DNA of 64,000 nucleotides from an uncultured Sunxiuqinia sp. (lineage in GTDB: Bacteria > Bacteroidota > Bacteroidia > Bacteroidales > Prolixibacteraceae): contig NZ_CANLZV010000012.1 of NCBI RefSeq assembly GCF_947495665.1, positions 1-64,000 on the forward strand, in the 5' to 3' direction. A program made the position numbers and the translations under genes. Below, one piece after another: positions 4,972-18,010 of this stretch (the first letter of the stretch is position 1; every line of letters starts with the position of its first letter). The notes below the pieces were generated by a model. That model had not been told where the DNA came from. It did no database searches and worked only from the letters and a program-made list of their open reading frames with translations.

Positions 4972-5043
4972 GGTCCCGTAGTTCAACGGATAGAATAGCA
5001 GTTTCCTAAACTGTAGATATGGGTTCGATTCCCGTCGGGACTA
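4972..5043 (+). tRNA. tRNA-Arg (anticodon CCT)
   Basis: The sequence folds as a full cloverleaf. The acceptor is GGTCCCG with CGGGACT (one G-T pair), the D stem is GTTC with GAAT, the anticodon stem is GCAGT with ACTGT around loop TTCCTAA, and the T stem is ATGGG with CCCGT around TTCGATT. Bases 34-36 are CCT, which read the arginine codon AGG. The 3' end, from the T-stem into the acceptor, is duplicated at 17964-17977 and is the likely integration site of the element to the right. The gene remains intact because the element restored the 3' end. CCA is not fully encoded. Confidence 0.95.
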
Positions 5044-5045
5044 CA
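5032..5045 (+). repeat. Left attachment repeat of the integrative element (tRNA 3' end)
   Basis: The 14-bp sequence CCGTCGGGACTACA covers the last bases of the tRNA-Arg T stem and acceptor. An identical copy is at 17964-17977. The two copies bracket about 12.9 kb that ends with a tyrosine recombinase gene, the standard arrangement for a tRNA-integrated element. Confidence 0.85.
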
Positions 5046-5066
5046 GAGTGTATGTTTAATCAATTG

Positions 5067-5472: not shown

Positions 5473-6114
5473 CTACAGAGCAACGACTTCACCTAGGTAA
5501 GTACTGTTAGATACTTCAGATTGGTTTTCGTTTTGAAATGCAATGTAGCAGTTCAACTCATCACCGGTGAAAGTAGTAGGCACCATGACTTCCTGGCTTC
5601 CGCTGGCACGTGTATTACCACCATTAATGGTTACGGCTTGCTTTTTAGCGCTATTGTAAATTACCAACATCGCTTTGTCTGTTGCCAGTGCTGTTCCTGT
5701 ACCGGAATTATCCACCCAAGAGAAATCGATTAGCCCTGGGGTTGTTACCAGAACAGATGGATTGAGTGCCCCTGTTAAACTGCCTCTGGATACTAATGCG
5801 TCAGCGTAAGTTATGCCATACTCGGGATAAATACCACTAATGGCATTTTGAATGGTGTAAGACATCGCGGCATTAAATGCACTCATTTTAACGGCATAGT
5901 CCTTAAACCCGGTTCGAAGAATAGAAGTGAGCGGTTGTAAGAAGTTTAATACCGTTACGAACTTGGTTCGCTGATCTACCTGAGCAGGAGTTCTGGGATT
6001 TGCTACACTTATAGGTTTGCTACGCATGTAGTCGATACCTTTCCAACTGCCACCAATGACTGTTCCGACCTTGCCGGAGAATCCACCCAGGATTCCTTGA
6101 TTGATTACTGCCAT
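5473..6114 (-). CDS. DUF6266 family protein
   Basis: This 213-residue protein begins MAVINQGILGGFSGKVGTVI followed by GGSWKGIDYMRSKP and NPRTPAQVDQRTKF, a signature I associate with the Bacteroidetes family DUF6266. Function of the family is unknown. There is no signal peptide and no membrane segment. The C-terminal half contains short beta-rich stretches (PGLIDFSWVDNSGTGTA, KAMLVIYNSAKKQAVTI) that suggest an immunoglobulin-like or structural fold. It stands alone in the left arm of the element with its own terminator. Family assignment is from memory of the N-terminal motif and is fairly sure; the role is not known. Confidence 0.8.
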   Translation of the reverse strand: MAVINQGILGGFSGKVGTVIGGSWKGIDYMRSKPISVANPRTPAQVDQRTKFVTVLNFLQPLTSILRTGFKDYAVKMSAFNAAMSYTIQNAISGIYPEYGITYADALVSRGSLTGALNPSVLVTTPGLIDFSWVDNSGTGTALATDKAMLVIYNSAKKQAVTINGGNTRASGSQEVMVPTTFTGDELNCYIAFQNENQSEVSNSTYLGEVVAL

Positions 6115-8137: not shown

Positions 8138-8233
8138 ATGGAGAGAATCAAAGATATACTTGAAGAAAATGGAATAAGAAATATGCTTGAATTTGATGAA
8201 AAGGAATTATTAATATCCAATAAAGAAAATTAA
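8138..8233 (+). pseudogene. Internally deleted XRE-type regulator remnant (31 codons)
   Basis: The frame reads MERIKDILEENGIRNMLEFD followed by EKELLISNKEN and a stop. The first 13 residues look like the start of small XRE-type helix-turn-helix regulators that precede restriction-modification genes in Bacteroidetes, and the last dozen look like the end of such proteins. The DNA-recognition helices between them are absent. It stops five bases before the GTG of the next gene. I infer an in-frame internal deletion of an original controller gene. It could also be a genuine leader peptide. Confidence 0.4.
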
Positions 8234-8237
8234 ACGG

Positions 8238-9254
8238 GTGCGAACTGGAATCGATATACTAGAAAATGAAATAGTCGCTCAGTACCCTGATGTACTCGAT
8301 AAACTACTGCGTGACCACACAACTCAAAAAAATATTTTTTGGGCTACTAACAACTATGAAAATCTTGGAGCACCATACAATTCTGATGCTTACATCTTAC
8401 CAGAATTAATTACAGGAGAAAACGGCAATATTATCATGCCTAGAATTCATAAAGACAAGATTTTGCAACAGACCAGATCCAAAGAAATGGCAGAGGTATT
8501 TACCCCATCTTGGATATGCAACGCGCAGAATAACCTAATTGACAATGCATGGTTCGGAAAAGAAGGAGTTTTCAATCAAGAAAGAACGATGGCTGACGGA
8601 ACCAAAGGTTGGGAAATAAACACGGATAAAATCACTTTTCCGAAAGGCAAAACTTGGAAAGGTTATGTGAGAGATACACGGTTAGAAATTGCTTGTGGAG
8701 AAGCTCCTTATATCACTAGTCGCTATGACAGTACAACGGGAGAATTCATTCCTATTCAAAATAGAGTTGGAATTTTAGACCGTAAGTTGAGAGTGATTAA
8801 CGAAAATGTCGATTCTACAGGTGAATGGCTAAAAGCAGCTCAAACGGCTTACAAAAACACCTATGCTTTCGAATGGCAAGGCGATAGCTTACTACTCGCA
8901 AGAGAAGCCATGCTTGCCACTTTTATTGAAAATTACACAGTTAAATTTGAAAAAGAGCCATTGCTAAAATCAATTCAATATATAGCCTACATTATTTCTT
9001 GGAATGTATGGCAAATGGATGGACTGAAAGGCGTAATTCCAAACAGTTGTGGCCATAAAACGGAGACAATCGTAAATCTTTTTGGAGAAACGGAGACCAA
9101 ACACACTTTTTGCGAAGGTTGCGAGAAAGGTAATATCCAAAAACACAACGGTATATATGCTCTAATAAAGGATTGGTCAAATAAAGATTCAAAAACAGGT
9201 AAAATGGGCAGAAAAATCAGGTTCATTGACCTATTAAATCATCGCGGAAAATGA
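8238..9254 (+). CDS. Restriction-modification methyltransferase component carrying motifs X and I-III
   Basis: This 338-residue protein resembles the front half of an N6-adenine methyltransferase. Motif X appears as EVFTPSWICNAQNNLIDNAW near residue 85. A variant SAM-binding motif I, LEIACGEAPYITSRYD, lies at about 148-163. An acidic motif II-like GILDRKLRVIN follows, then YAFEWQGDSLLLARE as motif III. A CGH...CEGC segment near residues 275-300 could bind zinc. The catalytic D/N-P-P-Y motif is not present here but is found in the next protein. The GTG start is the only good one and follows an upstream stop; the stop overlaps the next ATG by 4 bp (ATGA), implying coupled translation. I infer that the two proteins form one methyltransferase. 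Confidence 0.75.
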   Translation: MRTGIDILENEIVAQYPDVLDKLLRDHTTQKNIFWATNNYENLGAPYNSDAYILPELITGENGNIIMPRIHKDKILQQTRSKEMAEVFTPSWICNAQNNLIDNAWFGKEGVFNQERTMADGTKGWEINTDKITFPKGKTWKGYVRDTRLEIACGEAPYITSRYDSTTGEFIPIQNRVGILDRKLRVINENVDSTGEWLKAAQTAYKNTYAFEWQGDSLLLAREAMLATFIENYTVKFEKEPLLKSIQYIAYIISWNVWQMDGLKGVIPNSCGHKTETIVNLFGETETKHTFCEGCEKGNIQKHNGIYALIKDWSNKDSKTGKMGRKIRFIDLLNHRGK

Positions 9255-12200
9255 AGTTTACATCATCTTTAAAACTCAAGTTAATCTATGTTTTCCGCAT
9301 CAATGATGCAGCGCACAGCGGTTGTTTGAAAATTGGAGAAGCAACTTCTGATAGTGAGAATATTTTAGGACTAGAACCAAATAGTTCAAAGCTTAATGCT
9401 GCTGCAAAAAAACGGATAAATAGTTACACTCAAACGGCTGGAATTGCATATGACCTACTTTACACTGAAGTTACTGTCTATCCAAAGAATGGTGTTCTAC
9501 ATTCGTTTTCTGATCATGAGGTGAGAAACGTGCTTTCAAGATCAGGTTTAAAAAAGAAAGTATTTGACATTGAAAACAAAGCCAATGAGTGGTTTGTAAC
9601 TGATTTGGAGACTGTTAAAAAAGCAATCACCGCAGTAAAAGAGGGTAAAGATTCGCTTCATGCCAGTGAAGTTTCAAAAAGCCAAAACCCAATTGTTTTC
9701 AGACCTGAACAAAAAGAGGCCATTGAAAAGACCATAAAGCAGTTTAAAAAAAGTAATGAAATGCTTTGGTTCGCAAAAATGCGTTTTGGAAAAACCCTTT
9801 CTGCTTTGCAAGTTGTAAAGGAACATGAATTCACTAGAACGCTTATTCTAACACATCGCCCTGTTGTTGATAAGGGTTGGTTTGAAGACTTTGGAAAAAT
9901 ATTCTATGATACGCCACAGTATTCGTATGGTTCAAAAAATCAAGGTAATCAGTTTGCCACACTAGAAAGAGTATGTAAAAAAGGAAATTCCAAGTACATC
10001 TATTTTGCATCCATGCAAGACCTTAGAGGTTCAGAATTGGTAGGTGGCAACTTTAATAAAAATGATGAAATCTTTGGAACAACTTGGGATTTCGTAATTG
10101 TAGATGAAGCACATGAAGGCACACAAACTGAACTAGGAACAAATGTGCTTAGAGAGCTTAAGAAGGAAAACACAAAGGTGTTACACCTTTCAGGAACACC
10201 TTTCAATTTGCTCGACAATTACCAAGAAGAAGAAATATATACTTGGGATTATGTAATGGAACAAAAAGCCAAAGCAGATTGGGATAAAATTCACTTTGGC
10301 GACCCAAACCCATATGCGTCACTGCCAAAACTCAATATTTTCACTTACGACCTTGGTAAATTACTACACGGCTATATTGACGAAGAAGTGGCATTTAATT
10401 TCCGTGAGTTTTTTAGAGTGAATGAAACGGGAAGTTTTCTTCACGAGAAAGACGTGTTTTCATTCTTAAATCTTATTTGTAAATCGGATACTGAAAGCAA
10501 TTACCCCTATTCAACAGTAGAATATCGTAATAATTTCAGGCATTCGCTTTGGATGGTGCCAGGAGTGAAAGAGGCCAAAGCACTGAGTGCCATGCTTAAA
10601 ACGCATCCTGTCTTTAGTCAATTTGACATTGTAAATGTAGCGGGTGATGGTGATGAAGAGGAAGCCAATGAAGAAGCCCTTAAAAAAGTAGAAAAAGCCA
10701 TTAGCGACAATCCGCATGAAACCTACACCATTACGCTTTCTTGTGGACGTTTAACTACGGGTGTTTCTGTAAAAGCTTGGACGGCTGTTTTTATGCTTTC
10801 AGGCTCACACAATACTTCGGCTTCTGCATATATGCAAACCATTTTTAGAGTACAAACACCAGCTACTATTAACGGTAAAGTAAAGGAAGAGTGCTTTGTT
10901 TTTGACTTTGCGCCTGACCGAACACTTAAAGTCATTGCCGAAACGGCTAAAGTTTCAGCCAAGGCAGGAAAGACCACAGGCGAAGACCGCAAAATTATGG
11001 GTGAGTTCTTGAACTTCTGCCCCATAATCGCCTTTGACGGTTCACGCATGACTGATTATGATGTGAATGGAATGCTCGAACAACTCAAGAAAGTGTATAT
11101 CGAGCGGGTGGTAAACAATGGTTTTGAAGACACACATCTTTACAATAGAGACCAATTGATGCAATTGGATGATGTGGAAGTAGAGGAATTCAATGGGCTT
11201 AAAAAAGTGATTGGAAGCACCAAAGCCATGCCCAAAAGCAAAGACATAGAAGTAAACAAACAGGGTTTTACAGAAGAAGATTACGAGCAGATAGAACAAG
11301 CCCAAAAGAAGAAGAAAAAAGAACTCAGCCCCGAAGACAAAGCACTTTTGGAACGGTACAATGAGCAGAAAAAAATGCGTGATACCGCAGTTTCTATTCT
11401 TCGTGGCATTTCTATTCGCATGCCTTTATTGATTTACGGTGCGGATGTAAAAAACGAAGAAACAGAAATATCCATAGACAACTTTACGGATTTGGTGGAT
11501 GACCAATCTTGGGAAGAATTTATGCCTAAAGGCGTAGATAAAGCCACCTTTAAAAAATTCAAAAAGTATTACGAGCCGGATGTTTTTCGTGCTGCAGGAA
11601 AACGCATCAGGGCTTTGGCTCGTGCTACCGACCATGTGACGATTGAAGAACGAATAGAGCGCATTACCCATATTTTCGGCACCTTCAGAAACCCCGACAA
11701 AGAAACCGTGTTGACGCCTTGGCGTGTAGTGAATATGCACTTAGGCGACTGTTTGGGCGGTTATGTCTTTTTGGATGAAGCCCGTGAAAAAACAATCGGA
11801 CATCCGAATTTTACATCACAAGGTCAAGTAACCGAAGAGGTTTTTGCCACAGATGCACATATTCTCGAAATCAATTCCAAATCGGGGCTTTATCCTTTGT
11901 ATGTGGCGTATTCCATTTTCCGAAACCGTATCAAGGAACAATATCCCGATAAAGAACCAAACACGCTTACGGTGGAGCAACAACAAGAATTGTGGGATAA
12001 GACCGTAGCAGAAAATGTGTTTGTACTCTGCAAAACTCCCATGGCAAAAAGTATTACCAAACGCACTTTGGTAGGTTTTAGAGCAGCCAATGTAAACACG
12101 CACTATTTTGAAGACATGGTGCGACAAATTACCCAACGTCCTGAAAAGTTTATTGCAAAAATCAAAAAAGGACAATCTTATTGGAAAGCAAATAAAAACA

Positions 12201-13237
12201 ACAACATGAAATTTAACGCAATCGTAGGCAATCCGCCTTATATGGAAATGGACGGTGGTGCACAAGCAAGTGCAAAACCTATTTACAACGAGTTTGTAGA
12301 TATTGCCAAGAAAATTGAACCTGAATATATATCTATGATTATGCCTACAAGGTGGTATTCAGGCGGCAAAGGACTTGATGATTTTCGTGAGTCTATGATA
12401 AAAGACAAAAGGCTTGCTATTTTGCACGATTACTTGAATCCAGATCAGATTTTCCCAAAAACCAACATCCGAGGTGGAATTTGTTATTTCTTATGGGATA
12501 AAGGATATGGTAAAAATGGAGAACTAACTAAAGTAGTTACTCACCGAGATGGTGAAGAGCCAACATCAATAATGCGTTCTTTAAAGAGCGGAGAAACAGA
12601 TATTTTTATAAGGCATAAAATTGCTTTAGATATTTTAGAAAAAGTAAAGGTTCACACAGAATTTAAAAGCTTTGAAAAACACGTTTCTGCAAGAAAGCCT
12701 TTTGGACTTGATGGAGCTTTTTCCAACAGCAAAAGTTTCAAGACTTCCAAAGAAGGTTTAATAGAGCCACTGATTTGCTATGGCAAAGCAAAGGCCGTTG
12801 GTTACGTTGAAAAAGGTAATTTTAATTTTAAGGATTCTCTGATAAATGCTTTTAAAGTATTTACTCCCTACGCCAATAATATTGGTACAGAATTGAATGA
12901 CGACAACTTAAACACATTTATTGGCATGCCAGGTTCAATTTGTACGGAGACTTTTATTATGCTTGGGCATAATCTAAAATTGAATGAAACTTCTGCGGCT
13001 AATCTATCAAAGTATTTTTCATCAAAATTTTCTAGATTCCTTCACAGCTTAGCTAAAGCTAGTCAGCACGGAACAGCAAAAACTTACAAGTTTGTTCCCG
13101 TTCAAGATTTCACCAGCAACTCAGACATTGATTGGACAAAATCCATTCCTGAAATAGACCAGCAGTTGTACAAAAAGTACCAATTGAGTGCTGAGGAAAT
13201 GGCGTTTATAGAAAGTATGATCAAGCCGATGGCGTAA
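9251..13237 (+). CDS. GIY-YIG / SF2 helicase / Eco57I-type methylase fusion (restriction enzyme)
   Basis: This 1328-residue protein combines three activities. Residues 1-120 look like a GIY-YIG nuclease of the T5orf172 type (LIYVFRINDAAHSGCLKIGE, a conserved R, HSFSDHEVRNVL, EWF). A superfamily 2 helicase follows, with Walker A in the variant form AKMRFGKT near 175, DEAH near 285, SGTPF near 315 and a motif VI region around YMQTIFRVQTP. A long linker with charged helices leads to an N6-adenine methylase catalytic motif IV, NAIVGNPPYMEMDGG, near residue 993, then a probable target-recognition C-terminus. No SAM-binding motif I was found in this protein; it seems to be in the upstream partner. 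Such single-chain enzymes translocate on DNA and cut unmodified target. The cleavage role of GIY-YIG is inferred. Confidence 0.8.
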   Translation: MKFTSSLKLKLIYVFRINDAAHSGCLKIGEATSDSENILGLEPNSSKLNAAAKKRINSYTQTAGIAYDLLYTEVTVYPKNGVLHSFSDHEVRNVLSRSGLKKKVFDIENKANEWFVTDLETVKKAITAVKEGKDSLHASEVSKSQNPIVFRPEQKEAIEKTIKQFKKSNEMLWFAKMRFGKTLSALQVVKEHEFTRTLILTHRPVVDKGWFEDFGKIFYDTPQYSYGSKNQGNQFATLERVCKKGNSKYIYFASMQDLRGSELVGGNFNKNDEIFGTTWDFVIVDEAHEGTQTELGTNVLRELKKENTKVLHLSGTPFNLLDNYQEEEIYTWDYVMEQKAKADWDKIHFGDPNPYASLPKLNIFTYDLGKLLHGYIDEEVAFNFREFFRVNETGSFLHEKDVFSFLNLICKSDTESNYPYSTVEYRNNFRHSLWMVPGVKEAKALSAMLKTHPVFSQFDIVNVAGDGDEEEANEEALKKVEKAISDNPHETYTITLSCGRLTTGVSVKAWTAVFMLSGSHNTSASAYMQTIFRVQTPATINGKVKEECFVFDFAPDRTLKVIAETAKVSAKAGKTTGEDRKIMGEFLNFCPIIAFDGSRMTDYDVNGMLEQLKKVYIERVVNNGFEDTHLYNRDQLMQLDDVEVEEFNGLKKVIGSTKAMPKSKDIEVNKQGFTEEDYEQIEQAQKKKKKELSPEDKALLERYNEQKKMRDTAVSILRGISIRMPLLIYGADVKNEETEISIDNFTDLVDDQSWEEFMPKGVDKATFKKFKKYYEPDVFRAAGKRIRALARATDHVTIEERIERITHIFGTFRNPDKETVLTPWRVVNMHLGDCLGGYVFLDEAREKTIGHPNFTSQGQVTEEVFATDAHILEINSKSGLYPLYVAYSIFRNRIKEQYPDKEPNTLTVEQQQELWDKTVAENVFVLCKTPMAKSITKRTLVGFRAANVNTHYFEDMVRQITQRPEKFIAKIKKGQSYWKANKNNNMKFNAIVGNPPYMEMDGGAQASAKPIYNEFVDIAKKIEPEYISMIMPTRWYSGGKGLDDFRESMIKDKRLAILHDYLNPDQIFPKTNIRGGICYFLWDKGYGKNGELTKVVTHRDGEEPTSIMRSLKSGETDIFIRHKIALDILEKVKVHTEFKSFEKHVSARKPFGLDGAFSNSKSFKTSKEGLIEPLICYGKAKAVGYVEKGNFNFKDSLINAFKVFTPYANNIGTELNDDNLNTFIGMPGSICTETFIMLGHNLKLNETSAANLSKYFSSKFSRFLHSLAKASQHGTAKTYKFVPVQDFTSNSDIDWTKSIPEIDQQLYKKYQLSAEEMAFIESMIKPMA

Positions 13238-13634: not shown

Positions 13635-15146
13635 TTATTTGACTGGTATTAGGTTGCAAACATTCTCGGGTCTTAGCTCTTCGATTTTATAAGGAGGTTT
13701 GGTTCCGATGAATATCTCGGTTTCCTCCTTTACAATAAGCTCCAAACGCTTCATATAAGAATTAGGACACATTACGCAATCATGCACTGGAAATATTGGT
13801 ATTCCGGGGAACTCCTTTATAAAACGAGGTACAATCCTCTCAAGAACCAATATCGCTTCAATATTCGACAGAGTACGATTAAGGTTCCTGTGATCTTTTG
13901 TTTTTAATGATTCAAAATATTCGATCACGGTGGGGAAATAAGTCTTCCACAGTTTATACGGAACTGTATAATCGCGATAGTAATTTTTCTTGCTTGTATC
14001 ACTATTCAGAACAGTAAAAATCAGCCGCTTTGCTTTTGGTTTTTTAATATCCTCATAGCCCTGCTGCTTCCTTAACTCGGAGACCATAAATTTATAAAAT
14101 TGATTATTATCGACTAGCTCAATATACTTCCGAACGTCTGTATTCATCGCTGTTGTAGAACTTTTTCCAAACATATATGAAGAGGCTGTGTAAGTTGTAT
14201 GTGTGAAATGAGGTGGGGGTGTACTGTTACTGTTGTTCGTTTTTACCAACTCATTTATGGGCTCAGGGGTAGAGTTCTTAACCTTCTGGCTTAAATTCCA
14301 ATAACAGACTTTATCGCCCGTTGAAGTATTAGTATAAAAGTCAGGAGCAAATAGAACCCTTGACAAAAAAAGCTGACTACCTGAAAAATCGAGTTGAGAA
14401 AAACTCTCCCCGTGAAATTTGAGAAAATGGCGATAGCCACCTCTACAGATTGCCCACTGTGGATAAAGTCTCTTATCTCCAAAATCATCGGGGAAGCTAC
14501 ATTTCGCGAATATACCCTCGGAATACCGACGAACAACAATCCGCTCTCGGTCTCTATCGAAAGTACATATTTTCCCTTTTCTATTCCTATACCTTTCAGG
14601 CTGTTTTGCAATCCACTGCAAAGCATTTTCCTCATCAAATTCTATCAATGAATTAAAACCATCTAAGGACTCAATTAAGGGGTGATATTTAATAGTATTC
14701 CTATTTTTTCTGGGCTTGTACGGATTATTCCTATACTTCACTTCTTTGTATCGCCCTTTGTAATTTGAAGAATATTTATAACCCCTGCTCTTTTCTCCGG
14801 GGGTATAATTTGTCCGATCTAAAATACCATTAAGCCATAAGTAGTCAAGAATCTTAGAAGCACCTTTTATATGTTTATTGATAGCTTCCGAATTAATCAC
14901 AACAAAACCTTCACTATTTACCAGATCTCTTGATTTAATAGGCAGCTCTACTAATAAGCCAAGCAAATAATACCAGTGATCGAGAAAGGAATCAAACGTT
15001 GGAGGTGTCTGTGCTAATTTTTCTTCTAATTCCAATTTCTCAGGTATATAGGCAATGCAAATTTTCCCGGATGTTTTACGTTTAATACTATTCGGGAGAG
15101 CTATGGAGTCCTTTACCCCACGTCCCAATAGGTTAGACACTTCCAT
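13635..15146 (-). CDS. Putative element replication protein with family-A-polymerase-like motifs
   Basis: This 503-residue protein has no close family I can name. Its C-terminal half shows a motif order like the palm of family A DNA polymerases or T7-like RNA polymerases. QLDFSGSQLFLSR at 251-263 is comparable to motif A, KAKRLIFTVLNSD near 371-383 to motif B, NLNRTLSNIEAILVLERI at 421-438 to the conserved region before motif C, and FPVHDCVM at 452-459 to the HD of motif C. The N-terminal 150 residues are basic and could contact DNA. It follows a helix-turn-helix gene by 2 bp. Position in the element, next to regulator and integrase genes, suits a replication initiator. Motif matching was done by eye and the assignment is tentative. 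Confidence 0.5.
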   Translation of the reverse strand: MEVSNLLGRGVKDSIALPNSIKRKTSGKICIAYIPEKLELEEKLAQTPPTFDSFLDHWYYLLGLLVELPIKSRDLVNSEGFVVINSEAINKHIKGASKILDYLWLNGILDRTNYTPGEKSRGYKYSSNYKGRYKEVKYRNNPYKPRKNRNTIKYHPLIESLDGFNSLIEFDEENALQWIAKQPERYRNRKGKICTFDRDRERIVVRRYSEGIFAKCSFPDDFGDKRLYPQWAICRGGYRHFLKFHGESFSQLDFSGSQLFLSRVLFAPDFYTNTSTGDKVCYWNLSQKVKNSTPEPINELVKTNNSNSTPPPHFTHTTYTASSYMFGKSSTTAMNTDVRKYIELVDNNQFYKFMVSELRKQQGYEDIKKPKAKRLIFTVLNSDTSKKNYYRDYTVPYKLWKTYFPTVIEYFESLKTKDHRNLNRTLSNIEAILVLERIVPRFIKEFPGIPIFPVHDCVMCPNSYMKRLELIVKEETEIFIGTKPPYKIEELRPENVCNLIPVK

Positions 15147-16451: not shown

Positions 16452-17759
16452 TTAGTTGACTAATTTTCGAACCTTAGTTTTATTCTCTTCTCTTTGTTTT
16501 GCCAATTTTGTCCAATAATCTGCCTGTTGTTCAAGGTAATCAGGTGAACTTTTACCAATGTATTCGAGGAATTGTTTCTCGGTGCTGTGTGCCGTTATAT
16601 CCTTTAAAATAGAGGTTGGAATATCGCCGTAGAAATTGGTAGCAAAAGAACGGCGGCAAACATGAGAGGATAAAAGCATCCATTTTGGGTAAGCTCCCTG
16701 AATTTTACGGTTGGTTTCCTTGTCATTCCATCCACCCTTAGTAATCTTAGTGATTCCGGCTTCTTTGGCTACGTCTTTGATGTGGAGATTGAATTTCACA
16801 TCACTAATCGCTCTAGGAAAGTTACCATTTCGCTTATCCAGTATTTCTTTTACCTGCGGAGGCATCGCAATAGCGACCTTTTTACCTGTTTTTTGCTGTT
16901 CTAATTCAATCACTTCAAGACCGTTTCTATTTTGAACGTTTAACCGAGTGAGGCGAAGTAAATCAGAAACCCGCTGACCAATGAAACAACCTATAATAAG
17001 CCAATCCCGGGTATTATCTAAAGCTTCTCGCTTAAAGGTTGCATTCTTTATTTGCTCAATTTCATCGAAATCAAGGTAAATCGGTGTTACTTTCTCTGCA
17101 TAACCTTGTATCTCATTAACCTGCTTATGTGTTTCAACATACTTGTACTTATTAGCATACAAGCAGACTGTTTTCAAAGCCTTTACATAGCGACCAATAG
17201 AGTTTGTATTTAGTTTTTCTTCCTCTGCTAAATACTTTTCAAATTGGGCAACGAAATCAAGCCCGACATCCTTTACCTTAAATTGCTTGCCTTTATGAGC
17301 CTGAAAGCCTTCAATTTTGACCTTTAAAGCTTTGTATTTCTTTATGGTATTCTCGGCTACCCCTTTTACTTTGATGCCATTCTTGGAGTATAGCTTGAAG
17401 GGCAGATAGGCAATGTAATCGTTAAAGGCTGCTAATAAGCGGTCGGTTTCTGTTTCTTCAGCTTTATTCTGGAAGGCATTAACCTGTCTTTCGAGCCAAT
17501 CGCCATCGATGGGCCCTTCTTTTACATCGACATTGTAGTTGTCTTGAATCAGGGTGCTAAGCTTCTCCAAATCGCGTTTTAAGACTTTTAGCTTCTCATT
17601 GTCTCTGGGAATAGGCATACCTTTAGAAGTGCTCCAATTCCCGGGATCAATGAAGTAATTTGTTCTTCGCTTGAAAACATTGCTGCGGTCGATAGAAAAC
17701 CTTACGTAAATTGTAGCGTTCTCTTTTCTGCTTTGAAGGAAGTATTTTATTGTTGCCAT
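16452..17759 (-). CDS. Tyrosine recombinase (integrase) of the tRNA-Arg element
   Basis: The start is placed at the ATG at 17759 (MATIKYFLQSRKENATIYVR), the usual N-terminus of this Bacteroidetes family; the longer frame to 17813 adds an unlikely 18 residues. The 435-residue protein has an arm-binding N-terminus, a SAM-like core-binding domain around residues 95-200, and a catalytic domain. The catalytic domain shows the first arginine in IGQRVSDLLRL, the H-x-x-R box in SHVCRRSFATN, a downstream histidine in ITAHSTEKQ, and the nucleophilic tyrosine in FLEYIGKS. It would integrate and excise the element by recombination between the 14-bp sites. It lies about 205 bp from the right attachment site, as expected. 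Confidence 0.92.
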   Translation of the reverse strand: MATIKYFLQSRKENATIYVRFSIDRSNVFKRRTNYFIDPGNWSTSKGMPIPRDNEKLKVLKRDLEKLSTLIQDNYNVDVKEGPIDGDWLERQVNAFQNKAEETETDRLLAAFNDYIAYLPFKLYSKNGIKVKGVAENTIKKYKALKVKIEGFQAHKGKQFKVKDVGLDFVAQFEKYLAEEEKLNTNSIGRYVKALKTVCLYANKYKYVETHKQVNEIQGYAEKVTPIYLDFDEIEQIKNATFKREALDNTRDWLIIGCFIGQRVSDLLRLTRLNVQNRNGLEVIELEQQKTGKKVAIAMPPQVKEILDKRNGNFPRAISDVKFNLHIKDVAKEAGITKITKGGWNDKETNRKIQGAYPKWMLLSSHVCRRSFATNFYGDIPTSILKDITAHSTEKQFLEYIGKSSPDYLEQQADYWTKLAKQREENKTKVRKLVN

Positions 17760-17963
17760 AGGTAAAAAATTGGTATGTATAAATTTACAAAACAGTGTCA
17801 GCTTAGGCAACATTTAGGCAACCAAATCGCAATCACATCCAATTTATTCCAATTTAAATCAATTCCCAAAAACAATAAAAAGCTCTGAAGGTATTGTTTT
17901 TGCTGACTTGCAAGAGATTATGCGGGGGTTTAGTGATTTGAAGAAATAGGTAGTTCCTACTTC

Positions 17964-17977
17964 CGTCGGGACTACAA
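17964..17977 (+). repeat. Right attachment repeat of the integrative element
   Basis: This is a second copy of CCGTCGGGACTACA, identical to the tRNA-Arg 3' end at 5032-5045. The sequence just upstream (GTAGTTCCTACTT) does not continue the tRNA, showing that only the 3' end is duplicated. Confidence 0.85.
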
Positions 17978-18010
17978 AGCCTACTGACTATCAGTGGGCT
18001 TTTGTTTTTT
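17977..18010 (+). terminator. Probable original tRNA-Arg terminator, displaced by the element
   Basis: AAAGCCTACTGA (17977-17988) pairs with TCAGTGGGCTTT (17992-18003), giving 12 bp with one G-T pair and a 3-nt loop, followed by TGTTTTTTG. It abuts the right attachment repeat exactly as a terminator would follow a tRNA gene, so it is likely the pre-insertion terminator. Confidence 0.8.

Follow-up and report, generated by a model that had tools for sequence, protein, structure and literature searches.

A methyltransferase split between motifs III and IV, with a spare altered half, in a candidate restriction system of an uncultured Sunxiuqinia sp.

Positions 1 to 64,000 of contig NZ_CANLZV010000012.1 (NCBI RefSeq assembly GCF_947495665.1, from an uncultured Sunxiuqinia sp.), the stretch called the window throughout this account, carry a pair of overlapping genes for two proteins, referred to here as P1 and P2, that appear to form a restriction-modification (RM) system built on a DNA methyltransferase cut between its motifs III and IV. 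P1 would be the genuine S-adenosylmethionine (SAM)-binding half of that enzyme, while the C-terminus of P2 (NT) would bring the catalytic motif NPPY together with target recognition; P2 also contains what looks like a second half of the same kind (HB), with altered motifs. The reading preferred here, which is given slightly better than an even chance, is that P1 and HB compete for the one NT, the pair P1:NT marking DNA and the pair HB:NT cutting it. A split family of this kind is already known; the spare half hints at a way in which such a system could decide between the two activities. For restriction systems it is a standing question how the host survives an enzyme that marks and cuts one and the same site, and a physical exchange of half-domains on one catalytic half would, if true, be a simple and testable answer.

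The two proteins and their parts

The features on which the argument depends are as follows (all on the + strand).

8238..9254, +: P1, 338 aa, GTG start (open reading frame (ORF) call, PADLOC, conserved motifs, natural P1-NT fusions and the fold of one of them)
8682..8711, +: motif I of P1, LEIACGEAPY
9251..13237, +: P2, motor-nuclease with HB and NT, 1328 aa (ORF; Pfam and PADLOC matches)
9251..9670, +: N-terminal T5orf172 (GIY-YIG-like) nuclease domain of P2, right border approximate
9671..11590, +: superfamily 2 (SF2) helicase/translocase of P2 and the region following it, borders approximate (ResIII 6.9e-14)
9779-9796 and 10103-10114, +: helicase motifs MRFGKT and DEAH
11591..12196, +: HB, alternative Rossmann half with altered motifs X, I and II (VLTPW, LEINSKSGLY, VLCKTPMA), from a hidden Markov model (HMM) and the AlphaFold2 fold with NT
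11864..11893, +: variant motif I of HB, LEINSKSGLY
12197..13234, +: NT, from motif IV (NPPY) through the target-recognition half to the end of P2, left border approximate
12230..12241, +: catalytic motif IV, NPPY (GNPPY invariant in 15 rows of alignment A6)

In sequence P1 corresponds to the SAM-binding half of a gamma-type N6-adenine DNA methyltransferase, comprising motifs X, I, II and III and encoded on its own. It matches the PADLOC model MTase_II PDLC03390 at 1e-117, no family of Pfam or NCBIfam coming above its cut-off, and it carries in order FTPSWICNAQ (motif X, residues 88-97), LEIACGEAPY (I, 149-158), GILDRKLRV (II-like, 178-186) and EWQGDSLLLARE (III-like, 212-223), with no D/N-P-P-Y anywhere. 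An earlier note, made from the letters of this stretch, had already pointed to these strings, to the missing D/N-P-P-Y and to the 4-bp overlap (ATGA) of the P1 and P2 genes, all of which were borne out. Across a set of 102 P1 sequences (the window included, matches longer than 200 aa, five duplicate loci removed and three fusions trimmed at the start of NT), the motif I pattern CG[ED][AG]P is found in all 102, that of motif II in 101, and those of motifs III and X in 100 each, while [NDS]PP[YFWH] is found in none. Kept across so many sequences, the motifs are not chance matches, and the idea of P1 as a broken gene was ruled out on the same count. In some relatives the place of P1 is taken by a distant, canonical SAM half, P1' (FFEPSAGEGAF), which adjoins the same NT and helicase-HB families and is still weakly matched by the PADLOC model of P1 (1.4e-6); since the P1 slot can thus be filled by an ordinary SAM half, P1 itself is most simply one too.

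As to P2, the SF2 helicase and NPPY that the earlier note had read in it are confirmed by matches to ResIII (7e-14) and to Eco57I (6e-30, residues 921-1068), and the GIY-YIG-like start that it had suggested is identified as T5orf172 in nine of the 11 aligned N-termini of the family (best 3.7e-8), the window protein itself lying below the cut-off (E 0.015). PADLOC labels P2 as a whole REase_MTase_IIG, and its NT as MTase_II PDLC03375 over residues 984-1327; elsewhere NT occurs as a stand-alone protein or fused to P1. Sequence searches of the PDB with P1 and with P2 gave no matches, a search with A4 gave one weak match only (7lo5, E 0.1), and one with A2 gave two weak matches, to another kind of protein.

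It had also been claimed that P2 has no recognisable SAM-binding motif I, and this does not hold. Residues 820-831 (VLTPWRVVNMHL) and 872-881 (LEINSKSGLY) occupy the positions of motifs X and I; AlphaFold2 predicts P2 711-1328 as one continuous fold, and this model can be superposed by VIA-align on M.TaqI 21-413 from model residue 109 (only the first and last aligned residues are reported by such a superposition). HB and NT together are therefore predicted to make a complete methyltransferase fold, in which motif I is altered, not missing, and the view that P2 is simply without one was rejected on the fold and its superposition. A complete motif I in the large protein, which the earlier note had named as fatal to its proposal, was thus nearly found, the motif being there in altered form.

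The alteration is highly consistent. A lysine replaces the first glycine of motif I in all 92 HB sequences compared (67 from group A of the relatives, 18 from group A' and seven from group C; the first Lys pattern overlooked two of the group A sequences, which were then read individually). After strand 2, group A has [CA][KN]TPMA in 61 of 67 cases, with CKTQ, CKTE, CKTK, CQTK or APTP in the other six, group A' has IPTS in 18 of 18, and group C has AP[TS] in seven of seven, so that there is no acid directly at the place of motif II. In a wider set the Lys pattern is found in 97 of 103 helicase-bearing chains; two of the 97 matches fall on an upstream stretch, in chains that both carry the true motif in the 92-sequence set, and among the six misses, besides L141 and L137 (discussed below), L105 does carry the lysine, while L133, L134 and L135 are truncated where their loci end (L135 shows a GGKIGEF variant).

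These observations bear on the possibility that P2 alone is a complete type IIG/ISP-like enzyme, HB binding SAM through its altered motif and P1 being an accessory or regulator. The complete fold predicted for HB and NT would suit such an enzyme, as would the acidic residue that HB mostly retains at the start of motif I and the aspartate seen by eye at the motif III place of HB in groups A' and C. However, the lysine in the glycine loop of every HB compared and the lack of an acid directly after strand 2 argue against it, as do the retention by P1 of its own acids in 101/102 and 100/102 sequences, the existence of P1 and NT without an intact HB, and the fusion of P1 to NT elsewhere; taken together, these make it distinctly unlikely.

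Two partners for one catalytic half

That P1 could complete NT is indicated by four loci in which the two are found in one chain (L016, L110, L111 and L152); of these fusions only that of L111 was folded, giving a single predicted methyltransferase. The earlier note had held that the two proteins form one active site. This stands to the extent that P1 can apparently complete the NPPY half, as the natural fusions and the L111 fold suggest, and fails to the extent that P2 does have a half of its own.

In the mechanism proposed here, P1 docked on NT would be the modification enzyme, and P1:NT as a predicted methyltransferase is well supported. HB would be another such half, altered in its cofactor loop by the near-invariant lysine, lacking the acid of motif II, and carried on one chain with the T5orf172 nuclease and the SF2 motor; that it is an alternative half for the same NT is supported by the predicted fold. 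Since HB fits on NT at the face that P1 would take, the two would compete for one NT; and since P1:NT would methylate, whereas HB:NT would couple the recognition half to the motor and nuclease, both activities would read the same site. The computed basis of this model consists of the anatomy of the proteins, the split, the natural P1-NT fusions, the predicted folds of both pairings, the patterns of conservation and homology to the published methylating pair M1+M2 of DrdVI. We infer further that HB makes no use of SAM and is displaced by P1, and that this exchange settles whether DNA is marked or cut, according to the balance of P1; P2 without P1 would then be, if anything, the restriction form.

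Evidence relating to the pair P1:NT also comes from phages. The Tenacibaculum phages PTm1 and PTm5 and the Fusobacterium phage FNU4 match window P2 only from residue 991 to 1325-1327, which corresponds to NT. In the complete records of PTm1 and FNU4 a helicase-HB query from group C had no match; one from group A' (its own genome serving as positive control) found nothing in FNU4, and in PTm1 only the stretch directly before NT (query residues 854-960, with internal stops). PTm1 retains an intact P1 (gp279) and NT (gp277), its HB residue being broken. The locus itself (L099:6107-7607) has the broken A'-type HB remnant immediately before an intact NT gene, with no helicase match in the record. 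On sequence, these phages are most simply read as having retained P1 and NT and lost HB, and from the PTm1 and FNU4 sets it follows that HB is probably not needed for the methylating pair; exchange of halves, if true, would explain why P1 and NT occur without an intact HB or a motor in two kinds of phage (PTm1/PTm5 and FNU4). In the larger phage records G154, G157 and G158 (233-412 kb) there are helicase matches in frames of 1796-1928 aa, the frame of G157 also bearing NT. These three and L129 have a short P1, with the helicase-matching frame elsewhere on the same record.

The phage sets are relevant too to an asymmetric assembly in which nothing is exchanged, each complex containing at least two P2 chains, one NT joined by P1 and methylating, another still held by the HB of its chain and serving the motor, much like enzymes whose two modification subunits play unequal roles. 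The fold and slot evidence is equal to that for exchange, and a tethered P1 need not leave NT in the fusions L110, L111 and L152; against this, the P1 and NT sets of PTm1 and FNU4, which have no intact HB, indicate that HB is probably dispensable for the methylating pair. Such an assembly is considered unlikely, though less so than P2 acting alone.

The earlier note had gone on to propose a safety interlock, whereby the helicase-nuclease could be active only as a complex with P1; this is not supported, as HB appears to fill the same slot in P2. A version that takes HB into account would have P2 inactive as long as P1 has not completed the active site, and HB no more than a dead remnant. It would agree with the completion of NT by P1 in the predicted fold and with the position of the P1 gene, which precedes P2 with the short overlap already mentioned. 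A dead remnant should decay, however, as HB did in PTm1, while the near-invariant motif of HB persists across chains of about 25% identity, and HB is also retained on the helicase chain where NT is separate. We regard this version as very unlikely, and as the least likely of the alternatives.

Exchange of P1 and HB on NT must itself be set against a number of observations that do not favour it. In profile comparisons by hhalign, P1 and HB showed no significant similarity beyond motif X (probability 0.8% for group C and 2.3% for group A', group A not being compared), and even HB of group A' against HB of group C reached a probability of only 49%. The HB lysine is threonine in L141, and no HB of the window's kind was recognised in L137. 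The P1-NT fold is a single-chain model of one natural fusion; the P1 part of that fusion shares about 40% identity with window P1, and the rows of its alignment are all P1-only or NT-only except two, so that its P1-NT interface is without paired-sequence support. Where P1-NT fusions stand beside a separate helicase-HB chain, HB could pair with NT only by dislodging a tethered P1. In L143 helicase-HB-NT is present, but the 28-kb record (a fragment) yielded neither P1 nor P1'; a search of the L138 record for P1 or P1' likewise found none. Finally, there is the matter of divergence, for which the median identities to the window are these:

Group A (60 loci): P1 64%, helicase 69%, HB 62%
Group A' (17 loci): P1 69%, helicase 27%, HB 25%
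Group C (7 loci): P1 43%, helicase 37%, HB 24%

To judge by these figures P1 divergence does not track the motor chain, but neither does P1 track NT closely, the NT core medians being 49% in A, 36% in A' (where identity reaches up to 64%) and 34% in C.

Relation to DrdVI, MaeIV and other systems

The split is not in itself new, and its treatment as undescribed was rejected. DrdVI and MaeIV are in print as a "split methylase/RM" family (PMC10113651, PMC6430315 and PMC4996451); the first of these gives N6-methyladenine (m6A) at GCACY for M1-M2.MaeIV cloned in E. coli, and m6A at GCAGCC is reported for cloned M1-2.DrdVI (PMC6430315). A "new class of split DNA methyltransferases" is also named in PMC4335053. 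The earlier note expected related pairs to exist and was aware of no described mechanism; the family, however, has been published, and the combination of GIY-YIG with a translocase, which the note had called uncommon, belongs to it.

The DrdVI/MaeIV family resembles the window in having a small SAM half that is encoded by itself and lacks NPPY (the alignment of P1 with M1 of DrdVI is patchy, at 24 bits), an NPPY-recognition half in M2 that is homologous to NT, and a homologous chain of GIY-YIG type with a translocase. On pDrdVI, M1 is a canonical SAM half (FLEPACGSGNF), M2 consists of HB (RFLDPCTKSGVF) and NT, and DrdVI is the T5orf172-like/helicase (R) chain, in which the HB model finds no match. 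Models of the window's family score 271 bits for NT on M2.DrdVI, 53 bits for HB (group C model) and 387 bits for the helicase on DrdVI, and PDLC03375 matches both window NT and M2. Three further plasmid sets resemble DrdVI, bringing the HB lysine there to four out of four; the HB region of M2.DrdVI also finds, by tblastn, helicase-annotated proteins in other plasmids, the Bifidobacterium match lying near the C-terminal end. From these plasmids it appears that HB may be joined to NT, to the motor, or to both at once, the last being its place in the window.

The differences lie mainly in how the parts are distributed. In DrdVI, M2 (HB and NT) is apart from R, whereas in the window R, HB and NT form one chain; P1 has 338 aa and CGEAPY, M1.DrdVI 212 aa and EPACGSGNF. 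Equivalents of M2 and R are on separate chains in L012, L018, L109-L111, L144 and others, and because chain layout varies in this way among relatives, the window is called a variant of the DrdVI/MaeIV family and not a plain member. A literature search, with REBASE and most subscription papers outside it, found nothing on a second Rossmann half in this family and nothing on inversion at NPPY codons; the texts consulted on DrdVI and MaeIV likewise make no reference to a second half within M2.

Other known systems were also compared. The nuclease domain of type ISP enzymes is Mrr-like PD-(D/E)XK, unlike the T5orf172-like N-terminus of the window. Type ISP enzymes carry all activities, SAM binding among them, in one polypeptide. 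Window P2 has a full predicted methyltransferase fold with an altered cofactor loop, and P1 is separate. LlaGI and LlaBIII (5ffj, 4xqk) differ from the window, whose P2 motif I is altered and whose SAM half stands alone. DnmA-YeeB-YeeC loci, like the window, place a methyltransferase next to an SF2 helicase and a T5orf172 protein, but DnmA is an MmeI-like methyltransferase on its own, with no mention of a second half in the text consulted (PMC9973331).

Recognition cassettes, layouts and genomic setting

Prevotella corporis (L097) and a prophage contig (L101) each have two extra copies of NT 3' of P2 (L097:11838-15994; L101:11060-15210), with a tyrosine-recombinase gene beside them (Phage_integrase 4.8e-26 and 4.3e-28 respectively). 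In L097 a 28-nt inverted repeat (96%) links the NPPY codons of P2 (11968-11979) and of one extra copy (13989-14000), and 160-nt arms (73%) link P2 and the other; in L101 a 33-nt inverted repeat (97%) links the two extra copies, P2 being matched by 160-nt arms (76%). From its repeats the arrangement is likely to be a specificity shufflon of the NPPY-recognition half, where exchange of NT alone would re-aim marking and cutting together. In type I shufflons hsdS is swapped, and recombination alters the specificities of restriction and modification together; here, by comparison, the swappable module is the catalytic NPPY half with its recognition domain, the repeats lying on the NPPY codons. Exchange of P1 and HB, if true, would explain how a cassette switch at these codons could re-aim both activities. 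The fuller proposition, that a single NT has two mutually exclusive partners (P1 making it a methyltransferase, HB the aiming part of a motor-nuclease), that the half-swap, and not an addition of subunits, is the marking/cutting switch and that inversion of NT cassettes re-aims both, is put at a little short of an even chance. In three phage contigs (L157, L159, L167) there is one small canonical SAM half (DPSCGDGQF or DNSCGDGQF) with several tandem NPPY-recognition ORFs, two of which in L159 begin at the NPPY strand without a motif I of their own; possibly one SAM half is shared among several recognition halves there.

Layouts were surveyed over 155 loci with any HMM hit (the window included, 11 duplicates removed and other near-copies kept). 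P1 followed by helicase-HB-NT is found in 81, P1 / NT / helicase-HB in three (in one of them, L012, an insertion sequence separates P1 from NT) and also in L018, whose helicase is divided, P1-NT / helicase-HB in three, and P1' / NT / helicase-HB in five (L144 and L145 being identical), with L141 and L142 in other orders; P1-NT occurs alone in one and P1 only in 19 (many at contig ends or in phage records), and six fall below every threshold. L012 is a Bifidobacterium longum plasmid with P1, an IS256 transposase and separate NT-type and helicase-HB proteins. Among 395 genomes of the phylum, P1 is present in seven (its own genome included) and an HB of the window's type in three; each of these three has a P1 as well, no more than about 4 kb away on that contig, and two of the three P1 frames hold a stop. 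The family is common, P1 relatives being encoded in at least 584 of 591 pattern stretches in genome_contigs, among the matches listed; a scan of viral_contigs with whole P2 gave 12 pattern stretches and no relative. Database records name parts of the family "restriction endonuclease" or "subunit M", and the layout is for that reason easily overlooked.

In the window itself the restriction system is presumed, on sequence features, to be cargo of an integrative element of about 12.9 kb at tRNA-Arg(cct), with the following parts outside P1 and P2.

5032..5048, +: att-like direct repeat, left end of the presumed element, at the 3' end of tRNA-Arg(cct) (4972-5044); 17 nt, 16/17 identical to the right repeat
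5473-6114: DUF6266 protein (1.2e-79)
8138..8233, +: 31-aa ORF upstream of P1
15149-15430: helix-turn-helix (HTH) gene
16452..17813, -: tyrosine integrase (Phage_int_SAM_5 5e-11; Phage_integrase 4e-5, below cut-off)
17963..17979, +: att-like direct repeat, right end, 17 nt

Promoter and terminator scans stayed at chance level. The 31-aa ORF resembles, by eye, only the two ends of the HTH controller of relatives such as L019, and it was not found by the controller tblastn at E 0.01; of 110 loci, that search gave 17 a controller upstream of P1, among them L019, which is the closest relative, the query's own phage and L065, whose copy has an internal stop.

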